A stretch of 64,000 bases of DNA from Lamellibrachia satsuma (Eukaryota > Annelida > Polychaeta > Sabellida > Siboglinidae), in assembly GCA_033239005.1 (NCBI GenBank), contig BSQZ01000103.1:124001-188000 (forward strand), written 5' to 3'. Positions 24,201-30,200 of the stretch are shown here, piece by piece. Under the pieces are notes generated by a model. The model had not been told where the DNA came from and made no database searches. It was given only the letters and a program-made list of their open reading frames with translations. The position numbers and the translations under genes are program-made. The first letter of the stretch is position 1; each line of letters starts with the position of its first letter.

Positions 24201-27200
24201 TGCAGAGATGAACAGCCAAGACTGGGGGAGATTGGTATAGAAGATTGCAATGGATGAAGGTGACTCGTCGAGAGGACTAAACAGATTAAGTGATGTGGCC
24301 CCCAACCCTGCATGGGACCAAGGAAGAAGATTATATTTAACAAATTAATTGTTTAATTGTTGCTGTGGTTTTAATGTTTAAGTTTAATGATTGTTGCATT
24401 TTCTCGCTGAGTGTTGTCTAGTTTGGTCACTGGCCTATGGAGATTTGTGTCAGTCTGGTATATCTCTCTGTTACAGTTAATATCTGCCATCTCTGTGTTA
24501 CAGTTGATCTTCGCCTTCTCAACCCTCGGCACATTGTTCTACGGCTACTTCTTCTCCTTCCATCTCCTGCACATTGCTGAGTTCAACCAACTGCTCAAGA
24601 GAACCATCCGAGCCATCACTCAGAATGGTGCGTCACAACTACACATTTCTACACGGAAATAACAACAAGCCGTTATTGGACCTATTAAGCGTATATGCTC
24701 TAACAAGCATACAATCCCATTTTTGTAATCAACGACCATGTGGCCAATTTTATGTCTGTCTCTAAGAATGGATACAGCACATCTGTCACGCTGATCATTT
24801 GCCTCCCTCACTGTTGTTAATTTGTCTCCAATGTTTGACTCATAAGTAGTTCTAAACACATGGTAACCATTATAATGGTTGACTGAAATGTGCATGCCTC
24901 CAACTCCGAGAGGATGCCATTAGCAAGCATTGTTAATTTGTGTCTTGTTTCTGAATTCAATCAACTCAAGAGAGCCATCACTCAGAATTGTACATAATGA
25001 CTATACATTTCTGAATGGAAATGACATAATTAGCATAGACGTTTGATATTAATTTTTCTTTTTATGTGGCGTGAAAGAAATTCACAAACCATAAGTGTAG
25101 CCACAGTTGACTGAATTACTTTAATTTTGTACTTGAGTAAACATAAAAGTAATTCACCTAAAAAGTACTTGAGTAAAAGTACTTTGTGAAAAAAACTACT
25201 TGAGTAAAAAGTAAAACTACTTTTCAGAAGTACTTGAAGTAAAAGTAGAAGTAAAAGTACAACACTTAGAAATAACAACAAAATCATGAGGAATATTGTA
25301 TAAATTACACAGCTTGTATCTGGCAACTGTGTTGCAACCACTCTGCCTATAAAAAGTGTTCCCTGCCAGCCTTAGCTGGTCAATCGGTCTGCCACCCTTG
25401 AACATGGTACTCACTTGGATGTTTGGAAAATTACATTATCATTATGAGAGCTCACAACATCAAATAATGTCGGTTAAATACATAACTAAATTAATGATGA
25501 GGCACAACCTGTCTTTTTATCAACCTGCTCCACTGGGTATGGGAGGAGCTAGATTGTAGAACAGGATTATGTACACACAGGTGTGATTGTATCTGAATTG
25601 CTAGAGGGTCTGTCCAGTACTGGTAGTAGTAGCTGAATTTATTAAACATATCAATATGAATTTTATTCTATTTGTAAAAGTAAAATACTGTTTAATGCTG
25701 ATGTAAGCTGATAAAGCTGTTGCTGACAAATGGCGAAAATAGGTGAAGTTCTCGATCCACGATGCGCATTCGCTTGCGAATATAAGAATTGTGTATGGGT
25801 ATTATCAATATAATGTCGAAATCGCAAATTTTAATATTTATAGCACGCATTGGAAACTTACTGATTAATATTTGATATGGTGCAACAGATACATTTGCAT
25901 CATGGTTTGAGATGGCTTTCAAGCGTTGTGTGCTCGAAGTGACATTTTATGTCAACGGCCTTGACCTGACCTATGCCAGTATTTGGCACACCTCGTTCAC
26001 TGACCTATATATAAAACGGTGGTTGTGTCGATTGGAGTTAGTCAAAATTCTACTTCATTACATGCCAATTACTTGAAATAACTACTCAAGTATTGTAACA
26101 AAGTACTTTTACTTTGTTACACATCAACCCTGAGTGTAGCATAATTATATGACTACAAAGTTGATAGATATACATTCCATTGGCACGTAGGTGATCACGT
26201 GCTAAATTATTTAACTTAATTCATCTATTCTTAGCAGGTTAGGTGTTCGTAAATATCTGTTTTATTTTTGTATTTTGTGGTTTTAGCTGTTTGCTGACGA
26301 TCGATACATGATTTTTGGTCAGTGCATGTTATATTTCTAAATCATATGTTAGCTTTGTGTTTATGATTGTGATGTGTAAGTAATAATATTTTCTATTTAC
26401 ATATAAGAGTCTAATTATGCAATATTATAATGTTTATATTCCTTTTCAGCTTCATTTCAATAAACTAGTTTTGTATGCTGCTCATTTTCTTCATTGACAG
26501 ATATTTACTCAGTATATCCATCACCACATCTTCATCCAGACATGCTGTGCAATTATATTCAGTAGTTATATAAACTGTTCATTGTCTCTTACATATTTAT
26601 TTCAACGACTCTAGGCCCTAATGATAGAAAATGTTTTATCAGCCAGATTTGTACAGGCTTTGTTCATTCAACAAACCCAATATGTTGATATAAAATCTGA
26701 TTGGCCATTGAAGTCATGTGACCTATTCCAGGTGGGGCATTGATGTGGGTCTTCATTTACGGCCTCATCGTCATTTACATCTATGCACTGCTCGGCTTTG
26801 CGTTTTACCGTGAGCTGTTTGACTCGACTGATGGTCTGTACTGTACCACTGTGTACCAGTGCACCATGACCTTCCTTCACCGGGGCTTCATTAAGGGTAT
26901 CATGGAGGTAGGCAGGTGTCAGCTACTTGTGGTGGTGTCGGTTGTGGTAGTAGTACAGAGTGGTCACCACGCTTAACCTACCTGCAATAAAAATTCTCGT
27001 TATAGATGATAAGAAGAAAGGTTTTGTTCTTACTAACTATTTAACCCTTTCCTTTCCACAGGTTCTGCATCACTAACATCAGCAACCAGATACTTGTACT
27101 TTCAGCAGCTTAGCCAACTATTAACCAACTTTTTTAGGTGCTGTGGAATTGTACCCAATAACAATGTTGCAACAAACCTTCAACCTGAGTACTAATATCA

Positions 27201-30200
27201 CTACTAATTTGATTCCACTCAGTTCAAATAAGATTATGTTCCAGCAATGCTTTCATCTAATAATATGTGAAATGCCTTCCAGCATCCTTTTGTTTACTGA
27301 TGGATGCAGCTAACAACCTTGTGATACTGCAGGGTATGTGGGGGGACTTAGAAGGTCTTAAAATGGATCTTTGTGTTTTTAAGGCCTTGACAAAGTCTTA
27401 AAAATGGGAATTTTTCAAGAAAGGTTTTAAAAAAGTCATATATTTGATTTCACCAAACTAGGCTATGATTTGACAAAGGGAATGGACTGTGATATGCTTT
27501 TTTAATCAAATGATACCATTTGATTACCAGGTAAATAAATGGGTCTTAGAGGGTGTTTGAATAAAATGTCTATGTATTTTTTATTTAATTTATCATGGAA
27601 AAAGTCTTAGCTTTTCAAAGCATTGGTCTAAAAAGTCTTAAATCTGATCAGCCAAAAGACACATACGGCTGTAATTAAATCTGTTATTAACCTACACTTT
27701 CTAGGTCGGTCTCTGTTGTGGGTGTTCATCTACGGTCTCATTCTGATCTACATCTTCACCCTTGTTGCGTTTGCCCTTCACCGCGATATATTTGAGCCTA
27801 AGACGGGCCACTTCTGTGACACGTTCTACCAGTGTATTGTGACGTCACTGCGCAAGGGATTAATAGATGGCCTCTATGATGTGAGCATTAAGGGCTGTTA
27901 ATGTACAAACATTACATGCATGCATGCACATGGTCACGCGCACGTGCGTGCGTGCACACACACACACGCATACAGCAACAGACATTCACAAAATATCAAC
28001 TTCATGCTTAAGGAGCTGTTAAACAAGTTGTACCGTAAGGTAAAGGGGCCAAAGGCCAAGTGATAGTGAATTATAGAAAGAAATGAAAGGTTTAGCCTAG
28101 CATTACATAATGTAACACACAGTCTTGTGCAAAGCTCAATCCCAGAGTCCAGTTGACTCTTTCAGCTAATGTCTATAAGTCAAATGGATTCTCTATCAGG
28201 AAAGTTTGTTAGTGCATTCATTTAATAAATGTTCCAGGAATGTAACATCAGACATTCACAAGTAAATGACTCTGTACATTTCCAAGTATTTGAAATGTGG
28301 TGGTTACAATGTAATAAATTTACTGTCAGCCATTTAGTTTGCTGTGACAGCAAGTTAATTTGTCAAACCAGATTTTGAAGAATACATCTGTAAACCACAT
28401 CATCAATAATATCCAGCTTTAGTGCACTATTTATAAATGTTTAATTTATAATCTATTAGATATGTTGTTTTTGGATGTATGATTTGTATTACATATCTTA
28501 GCAACTTTGAATGTCACCTGTCTTTATTTTAATGCTTGCCTATAGGAAGAGGTAGGTATTGCTAACTACAGTCACTGTTTCAGTTCTGTTTTGTTATCCC
28601 ACAAGGCAGACTGAATAATGATCTAACAGGTCAATTGAGGGGGAGGGTGAAGGAAGTGGCACCACCTCAGCATATGAGGGTATCAAGACCGTGTGTAAAC
28701 TTGGGATGCACATAACAGAATTCAGTTGTGTTGAGAAGGGTGTCAAAAATGTTTGTGGTCATACCAGTCAGCCACTACAATGTTTATTGGAGTAGCGATA
28801 AACCTTGGACAACTGCGTGAAGGTTTACTTACTTTTCACTGTGTTTAGTATATGCACTTGCAAAGGAATTGGTATTTCACATATTTGTGTTGTGGGTATT
28901 GTTTTCATGCATGAGTTGCAATATGGTGGGATGATTCACAAAAGTCAAATGATGTTGGACTGGATAGTACAGCCACATGCTGAAGTCTTAAATACATATG
29001 AAATATATCAAATGTCCCATAGTGCATTGGCTGTACTCGGCACTGCACTCTTTATTTGCACGCGTGCATCTACATGCGCCACTAACTGCACTAACTGATA
29101 TTGTTCATTACAAGATCATCAAGTCAATTAGCACTTTGTTATATATTTTTAATGGTGTTGAAGGTTGGTTTTCAGAGCTGACTGGTGGCTGTAGTTACGT
29201 CTACAATATTGATGACTCACACTGTCACATATACCAGTGTTATTCCTGTCTCATTGATGACAAATACTGATGACACACTTCACTATTGATTTTAATAAAT
29301 TTTACGCTGGTCACAAATTAAGGAAATTAACATTAAAACCAAGTTATTATTTTGTGTGTTGATCTTGCAAGCTTGAAAAAAATTGGGTGTGATATGTATG
29401 TGTACTGGACGGTATAAACCAGTTTGAATTGTTAAGGTTGTGTTGTTTGATATTTGTGTGGCGGCCTAGGAAAACCAGTCACATTGTCAAAAAAATCATA
29501 TGTATTTTTATTCAAGAAATGGAAAGCAGCACTATTTCCAATTCTAATACAGTTTATTTTATTCAAATATTCCCACTAGAACCAAAGTTACAAGAGTTTA
29601 AAGAGGGCACCTATCAGAAATTAGTTACGGACAAAAATCAGTTTTAAAGTCAGGAGTCATTATTCACATGAAAATAAAACTTCATGACGGTATAACAAAA
29701 TATATGTCGCTATTACCATATAAAGTCCTGTGAAGAAAATATAGCTGTGTTTGTTACCTTTAGTATACAGAAATAATTATTCAATTCTGGTGTATACTTT
29801 TAAAGTTACAAGGACTTAAAGAGGGCACCCGTCGACATTATTGCAGAAGAAAAGTACTCGTAAAGTAGAGCCTGGATTCATCATAATTTATGTCAAAAGA
29901 AAATGTTGTTGCAGTAGATAACAAAATATCCAGTGCTATTACCATGTCCAATGCAGTGAAGAATATGTAGGCATGTACCTTAGCTTTGGAACACTTAAAC
30001 TATTATCTGGTTCTGATGGTTACTTTTAAAGTTACAATAATTTAAAGAGGGCACCCATCATAGTTGTTTGTTAGGAAAAAAATGTACATGTGTATATTAT
30101 TAATAATCGCAAGAGGTAGCAAACTCTTCCACGAATATGTGGTTAGCTCTGAAAAGAGCTGTTGTTGTTTGGCTCTGAAGGTAGCTGTTTGTTTTCTTTT

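Follow-up and report, generated by a model that had tools for sequence, protein, structure and literature searches.

The 64-kb window (the whole stretch of DNA analysed, from contig BSQZ01000103.1 of Lamellibrachia satsuma; coordinates are window positions) contains, on its plus strand, part of a gene for a channel related to the IP3 receptor (IP3R) and the ryanodine receptor (RyR). Exons that run from an RIH_assoc domain to S1-S4 lie at 11049..21580 (approximate boundaries), and the N-terminal half of the gene, including the IP3-binding core, should lie 5′ of the window. Downstream of these exons is a constant exon that encodes the end of S4 and the S4-S5 linker and ends ..TQN G|gt (24504..24627), and there then follow two candidate pore exons: exon A (26732..26907), which encodes S5, a luminal loop with a CX5C motif, the pore helix and the filter remnant GIME, and exon B (27705..27880), which encodes S5, a luminal loop that likewise has CX5C, the pore helix and the filter remnant GLYD. 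A GT-AG intron of 797 nt (26908..27704) separates the two. The remaining plus-strand exons are constant and encode the post-filter stretch, S6 and gate (FLAVPEG...ELRDNK; 33158..33307), the CFIC half of the linker zinc-finger (33595..33672), an HVKEEHN motif (34388..34507, boundaries set by eye) and a C-terminal ..DFFP.. segment with a coiled-coil-like stretch (35130..35267, approximate boundaries). The intron between exon B and the S6 exon carries a transposon-like insert on the minus strand (29458..32945), with terminal inverted repeats and two long minus-strand open reading frames; this insert is not channel sequence and is missing from a tandem copy of the gene described below. Satellites dominate a comparison of the gene with itself.

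Homology to IP3R and RyR extends through S4-S6 and the C-terminal linker, each isoform matching 51 distinct PDB sequences, all of them IP3R or RyR (best E values 4e-21 for the A isoform and 2e-22 for the B isoform), and the RIH_assoc domain is recognised with an E value of 1e-19. An earlier note on this DNA had described the pore as IP3 receptor-like; that homology holds, and "pore of an IP3 receptor" needs a qualifier because the gene falls in an IP3R-like clade that has diverged and whose filter is altered and shortened. Neither A nor B carries GGG(V/I)GD, the filter motif of the release channels (PMC3213138). Their filters align two residues shorter than this motif, with GIME and GLYD corresponding to its last four residues. 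Among Paramecium relatives of the release channels the motif is reported to vary (PMC3213138). In pore A the first cysteine of the loop is not followed by an acidic residue, and pore B keeps the canonical D both at this position and at the end of the filter, together with an extra D. It is possible that, with a filter so short and poor in glycine, neither isoform would conduct calcium normally. The window gene does not encode a canonical IP3 receptor; the same genome also holds a gene for one, distinct from the window gene, in which S4-S5 and S5 lie in one open frame, the S5 exon boundary of the window gene not being shared. The window gene would probably fall within IP3RB, an invertebrate, non-canonical IP3R type that was lost in vertebrates and has two leech members, one of which is enriched in touch neurons (PMC7992859).

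When we re-derived the geometry of the two pore exons, the coordinates, lengths, phases, splice dinucleotides and protein identity all came out as the earlier note gave them. Both exons are 176 nt long, enter in phase 1, leave in phase 0 and are flanked by GT-AG sites, and their products are identical at 29 of 59 residues (49%) in an ungapped alignment, a match well above chance (tblastn E of about 2e-17 in each direction). A and B thus agree in length, phase, splice-site type and homology, the properties by which mutually exclusive pairs are recognised; of 16,180 exons that were constitutive or of cassette type, 90 are reported to share these properties, and these lie in 6 of 1,705 genes of the fly X chromosome (PMC3228551). 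Joining the S4-S5 exon to A, the S6 exon and the zinc-finger exon (24,504-24,627, 33,158-33,307 and 33,595-33,672 for the constant parts) gives an open frame of 528 nt, and the same holds with B in place of A. Inclusion of both exons brings a first stop at codon 114, within exon B, and skipping of both brings one at codon 61, within the S6 exon, in agreement with the proposal that the frame demands exactly one of the two. Where the exons had been said to reach the start of the filter, we find that they encode S5, the loop and the pore helix as proposed and that the whole aligned filter remnant (GIME or GLYD) lies inside them.

A second, near-identical copy of the gene, either a paralog or a misplaced haplotype and different from the first at roughly 2% of positions, is present on the same contig and contains both A and B, intact and in the same order. 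The upstream constant exon is identical between copies at 41 of 41 residues, exon A differs by 2 synonymous changes in 176 nt, and exon B differs by 1 synonymous change and one conservative replacement (I to M), these two changes in each exon being too few for a test of selection on A and B alone. The flanks of both exons (20 nt before and the first 10 nt after each) are identical between copies, and all their splice sites are intact in both. The earlier note named decay of one exon in relatives as grounds for abandoning its reading; in this copy neither exon has decayed. Over 14 of 18 exon pieces, the comparison of the copies gives Ka 0.005 and Ks 0.035 (13 synonymous and 7 nonsynonymous changes), with 2 of the 14 pieces read in the wrong phase and showing no differences. 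The four pieces left out of this count comprise two that were not aligned end to end, which later aligned without indels and carry approximately 5 to 6 nonsynonymous and 2 synonymous changes, and two that were not whole codons, which carry 4 synonymous and 0 nonsynonymous changes; adding the four by hand (about 6 synonymous and 5 to 6 nonsynonymous changes, no indels or stops) gives roughly Ka 0.007 and Ks 0.04. The channel gene is constrained between the two copies.

The presence of so similar a copy on one contig, together with the fact that the contig starts within the duplication (its base 1 corresponds to window position 1,918), is what might be expected if the A/B pair were an assembly artefact or the product of two gene copies fused together, an explanation to which we give almost no weight. 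The pair sits inside one gene with a single intact S4-S5 exon and a single S6 exon, an order that the two copies share, and A and B cannot be two haplotypes of one exon because they are only 49% identical in protein. Moreover, the repeat is local: among the best 40 of 976 candidates, the only full-length match to window positions 56,250-57,100, 20 kb past the gene, is that segment itself.

Between A and B the proportions of differing synonymous and nonsynonymous sites are 0.70 and 0.28 (pS and pN), with no stop and no indel, so that synonymous sites are saturated and yet both frames remain open. When neutral evolution was simulated at d=0.5 per site with an assumed indel rate of 0.1 per substitution, none of 4,000 exons was free of both stops and indels and 17% were free of stops alone. 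Human ITPR2 residues are matched by B at 10 positions where A differs and by A at 2 positions where B differs (the ITPR2 row covers 54 of the 59 columns), and the Pfam Ion_trans score is higher for the B construct (43.4 bits) than for the A construct (34.5 bits). Because synonymous saturation is combined with open frames, and because B has the additional canonical IP3-receptor residues, both exons look to have been constrained for a long time. These observations bear on the suggestion that the tandem duplication left B (or A) behind as an exon hardly ever spliced in and open by chance or through recent loss of function. The pyrimidine tract before B (ttaacctacactttctag) is, by eye, only moderate, as is that before A, which would suit such a leftover; however, both exons have stayed open, in frame and free of indels in two copies despite saturation, B retains canonical residues that A lacks, and the splice sites of both exons are preserved in both copies. 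We regard a leftover as unlikely.

The other paralogs also speak for a leftover. In the stretches fetched, all seven further divergent paralogs in the genome have a single pore exon, which is A-like and has the same architecture; neither a B-like exon nor a remnant of B was detected there by tblastn at E values up to 10. Searches of the genome by protein and by DNA likewise returned no other B-like exon. (For paralog C30 no S4-S5 exon was detected in the fetched stretch, so that its upstream intron is covered only partly.) Because the seven lack a second pore exon in the stretches examined, the pair appears to be a feature of the lineage of the window gene, not of the whole clade. Paralog C21:3.99M shares 36 of 41 residues of the upstream constant exon. 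Free trees of the pore exons gave no resolution. When B was placed at five positions on a fixed paralog tree (59 columns), its placement as sister of A was the worst; this placement had AU p values of 0.054, 0.074 and 0.054 under three models and was excluded by bp-RELL and c-ELW but not by KH, SH or AU at 0.05. For these trees the outgroup rows were aligned by hand and brought to equal length by omitting two glycines of the filter and the greater part of the long luminal loop, and paralog C3 was entered minus its last three residues. In a run with an outgroup row shifted by one column, B as sister of A was again worst (AU p 0.059), and a free-tree clade test with the same shifted row did not reject a grouping of A with B (AU p 0.238). 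We lean towards an A/B pair that predates the split from the C21 group, which is a lean and not a result.

Taken together, these data make it probable that the pore exon of an IP3R-like calcium-release channel was duplicated in tandem long ago and that the copies now serve as mutually exclusive alternatives. The sequence bears out the pair, the frame logic and long constraint on both exons, and the pair recurs in the tandem copy, so that the earlier proposal is upheld in part; mutual exclusion at the level of RNA, mixed tetramers and two working pores are what we infer. In each pre-mRNA the spliceosome would join the S4-S5 exon to either A or B and then to S6, and transcripts with both exons or neither would meet an early stop and be removed by nonsense-mediated decay. 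Because transcripts with the wrong number of pore exons would be decayed, no dedicated pairing or steric device would strictly be needed. Steric exclusion is ruled out, the 797-nt intron between A and B being too long, and a U2/U12 mismatch is not seen, all sites being GT-AG. A crude whole-strand test of the A-B intron plus 600 nt on each side gave no signal of RNA pairing (34, 39 and 35 of 40 shuffles equalled or exceeded the real sequence). Among human mutually exclusive clusters, 377 (60%) are reported to hold exons with lengths not divisible by three, and reads joining one exon to the other occur in only 83 (22%) of these frame-shifting clusters (PMC5740500). Because such reads are found in only 22%, a device that acts on the RNA is usual, and we identified none in the window gene. 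The non-productive outcome of double inclusion and of skipping would also serve a frame-breaking switch that tunes the amount of channel, with the protein difference secondary. We find this improbable to a marked degree, as a pure poison exon need not conserve pore-domain residues, whereas A and B each encode a full segment from S5 through the loop and pore.

If A and B are indeed mutually exclusive, each subunit would carry either pore A (GIME) or pore B (GLYD), and the isoforms, which could be combined within a tetramer, would differ in conductance or selectivity. We are evenly divided on the fuller reading, in which splicing gives one release-channel gene two whole pores that extend from S5 to the filter and differ in filter chemistry (GIME versus GLYD), from which cells could build channels, mixed tetramers included, of at least two conductances, the B pore being the older and more canonical-like and the A pore of the clade type. 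Isoforms of intracellular calcium-release channels are usually described as differing mainly in cytosolic regulation. Two pores selectable by splicing within one gene would let an animal adjust the release of stored calcium directly at the pore, and a natural pore swap in an otherwise constant channel would be a ready experiment on the determinants of calcium permeation.

The window gene has in common with ITPR1-3 and RyR1-3 the order S4-S5/S5/pore/S6, the CFIC linker and the RIH_assoc domain, and with IP3R the CX5C luminal cysteines; it differs from ITPR1-3 and RyR1-3 in its filter, which lacks the glycine run and is shorter by two residues, and its luminal loop is shorter than that of IP3R. 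A literature search found no alternative pore exons in IP3R or RyR. The IP3RB type, to which we liken the gene by description, is also non-canonical, and the available text of its account makes no mention of an alternative pore exon (PMC7992859). In the same calcium-release superfamily, exons a/b of insect RyR are mutually exclusive but belong to the second SPRY domain, which is cytosolic, whereas the pair described here lies in the pore (PMC3989282, PMC6026295); for insect IP3Rs such exons are described as unmapped, yet not to be dismissed (PMC6026295). Splicing is already known to produce alternative pores in NALCN and T-type channels (PMC4436565). Exons 12a/12b of Lymnaea Cav3 T-type channels are likewise alternatives in the S5-P region and alter sodium/calcium permeation, but there the filter site and P2 helix are unaffected by splicing (PMC4436565), whereas in the window gene S5, pore helix and filter all differ. 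The exon arrangement also resembles that of invertebrate NALCN, whose exons 15a/15b and 31a/31b are also tandem-duplicated, mutually exclusive pore exons and whose splicing alters a filter residue and hence, it is proposed, ion selectivity (PMC4436565). In NALCN, however, one of the four domains of a four-domain channel is altered, whereas in the tetramer-type channel of the window gene every subunit would change.

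On its plus strand the window carries the C-terminal part of a large IP3R-like gene, whose exons, by comparison with a paralog, span at least 11,049 to 35,267. The gene includes a RIH_assoc domain (E = 1.2e-19), and a 770-residue joined piece of its product scores 24.1 bits against Ion_trans, slightly under the curated cut-off of 25, which the pore pieces exceed with either of two alternative exons, A (26,732–26,907; 34.5 bits) or B (27,705–27,880; 43.4 bits). Among solved structures, all matches of the pore region at E values up to 0.01 are to chains with IP3R or RyR names (51 distinct sequences per isoform), the best being RyR1 for the A isoform (E = 4.1e-21) and ITPR2 for the B isoform (E = 1.6e-22). 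A subfamily named IP3RB in a leech study is understudied and was lost from vertebrates (PMC7992859); the clade of the window gene may be a member of it. We note that a satellite array with a period of ~30 bp, in which several frames are open on both strands, lies between exons of the gene (10111–10875), and that minus-strand ORFs resembling, by eye, a retroelement polyprotein lie downstream of it (39918–44067).

Exons A and B are each 176 nt long, are entered in phase 1 and left in phase 0, and have GT-AG splice sites; their products are identical at 29 of 59 residues without gaps, the lengths, phases and identity all being as the earlier note had reported. That note had also placed S5, the luminal loop, the pore helix and the start of the filter in each exon, and alignment to IP3R and RyR chains bears this out, each exon covering S5, a short luminal loop, the pore helix and the filter. 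The loop of both contains the CX5C cysteines. The claim that the frame demands exactly one exon held as well: with the constant S4-S5 (24,504–24,627), S6 (33,158–33,307) and zinc-finger (33,595–33,672) exons, A alone or B alone gives an open frame of 528 nt, whereas inclusion of both leads to a stop at codon 114 and inclusion of neither to a stop at codon 61. A and B form a genuine, conserved-looking pair of alternative exons for the pore of a divergent IP3R-like channel, and their mutually exclusive use is predicted from the DNA.

In the assembly holding the window (735 Mb, 279 contigs), the gene occurs again on its own contig, ~128 kb upstream. The duplication extends from window position 1,918, the counterpart of contig base 1, to 39,073 or beyond, and the copies, which insertions also distinguish, diverge by ~2% in the pore introns (gaps apart, 15 of 796 sites differ in the A–B intron, 9 of 398 upstream of A and 7 of 447 downstream of B). 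Both pore exons are kept in the tandem copy, A with two synonymous changes and B with one synonymous change and one I-to-M replacement, and the 20 nt preceding and first 10 nt following each are identical to those of the window copy. Comparison of 14 of the 18 exon pieces between the copies gives Ka = 0.005 and Ks = 0.035; adding the remaining four by hand brings these to roughly 0.007 and 0.04, so constraint acts on the gene overall. The copies are either true tandem paralogs or misplaced haplotypes, and the pair is unaffected either way. Elsewhere in the window, 56,250–57,100 has itself as its sole full-length match when the best 40 of 976 candidates are scored, so this repeat is local.

Several other elements lie in the introns around the pair. 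The B–S6 intron holds a 3.5-kb transposon-like insert (29458–32945) with terminal inverted repeats, a target duplication of ~7 bp and, on the minus strand, two long ORFs of 417 and 362 aa; it is absent from the tandem copy, whose empty site is intact. The intron preceding the S4-S5 exon contains a minus-strand reverse-transcriptase-like ORF of 664 aa (21928–23922), LINE-like by eye, and the stretch 21,828–23,839 is missing at the matching place of the tandem copy. Upstream of A, a degraded duplicate of the last part of the S4-S5 exon, donor site included (24972–25026; 80% over 55 nt to 24610–24664), has a counterpart in the tandem copy.

Between A and B, ~70% of synonymous sites differ, a saturated level, against 28% of nonsynonymous sites. 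Among 4,000 neutral simulations at 0.5 substitutions per site, with an assumed indel rate, 17% acquired no stop and not one avoided both stops and indels, so a neutral exon would not remain open so long. Over 54 columns B matches ITPR2 at 23 and A at 15; A alone matches it at 2 positions and B alone at 10, including the R and S of the GRS that opens S5, the acidic residue following the first cysteine of the loop and that of the filter. In a comparison of nine divergent pore exons, B comes closest to each of the two IP3R rows, sharing 23 of 59 residues with the canonical gene of its own genome (next best 18) and leading the next best against ITPR2 by 23 to 20 of 54; against RyR1 another paralog is nearer than B (17 versus 15 of 59). 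Taken together, this points to retention of B by selection and against a recent, relaxed copy of A. Placing B as the sister of A gave the worst of five trees, yet neither the AU test (p = 0.054–0.074) nor a cruder test of sisterhood (p = 0.238) rejected it.

Seven further divergent paralogs are present in the genome, on contigs C21 (at 10.24, 3.99 and 1.35 Mb), C136, C135, C30 and C3, each with a single A-like pore exon, 176 nt long and in the phase of A; the C3 exon was cut at 167 in the comparison of the other six, and its end was taken from a separate translation. No second pore exon was found in the stretches fetched around these seven, and genome-wide no other B-like exon was recovered by protein search with B (27 of 27 candidates scored) or by DNA search, in which only two places on contig C103 cover the exon. 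None of the genome matches to pore queries joins a pore exon to S6 in spliced form, and thus no retrocopy showing splicing was seen; a match on C136 (query 43–109) crosses the exon border yet runs through two stops, as an intron would. A canonical IP3R, with filter GGGIGD, lies on C8 at 4.65 Mb, and two more canonical-like matches, of S6 only, lie on C8 at 5.85 Mb and C41 at 1.08 Mb (3 kb translated). Including the tandem pair, the divergent IP3R-like genes or copies on C103, C21, C136, C135, C30 and C3 number nine or more and have shortened, variable filters (GIME, GLYD, GILE, GMQE, GLVN and others) alongside the canonical IP3R.

The filter aligns two residues shorter than GGG(V/I)GD, the motif as defined in PMC3213138, and reads GIME in A and GLYD in B; for the nearest paralogs, ungapped alignment to A gives GILE or GMQE. 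B has a canonical-like D both at the filter end and after the loop cysteine, and one further D; at the two former positions A has E and T, respectively. Because of these filter and loop residues, we infer that the A and B isoforms would differ in conductance or selectivity; alternatively, neither isoform may conduct, and these may be modulatory subunits.

As to how one exon would be chosen, steric exclusion is unlikely because the A–B intron is 797 nt long. No splice-type mismatch between the exons was seen, and pairing of the A–B intron with 600 nt on either side was, in a crude test, not above that of shuffles. The frame alone could enforce the choice, as double inclusion or skipping would give early stops. 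Of human mutually exclusive clusters, 377 (60%) are reported to contain exons of such frame-shifting lengths, and reads join both exons in only 83 (22%) of these (PMC5740500), so choice at the RNA level is usual.

The earlier note knew of no IP3R with alternative pore exons, and none emerged from the titles and abstract openings listed for literature on mutually exclusive exons and IP3R, or from those listed for filters and evolution, each set including few subscription papers; the terms 'itpr' and 'ryanodine' are absent from the main text of PMC5740500. In insect IP3Rs mutually exclusive exons were, according to PMC6026295, not mapped and cannot be dismissed. Within the literature searched, the pore exon pair appears new both for the channel superfamily and for its position. 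The mutually exclusive exons that this literature was found to describe in the release-channel superfamily are those of insect RyR, in the cytosolic SPRY2 domain (PMC3989282, PMC6026295). The splicing arrangement itself is of a known kind, its closest working parallels being exons 15a/b and 31a/b of NALCN and exons 12a/b of T-type channels (PMC4436565).
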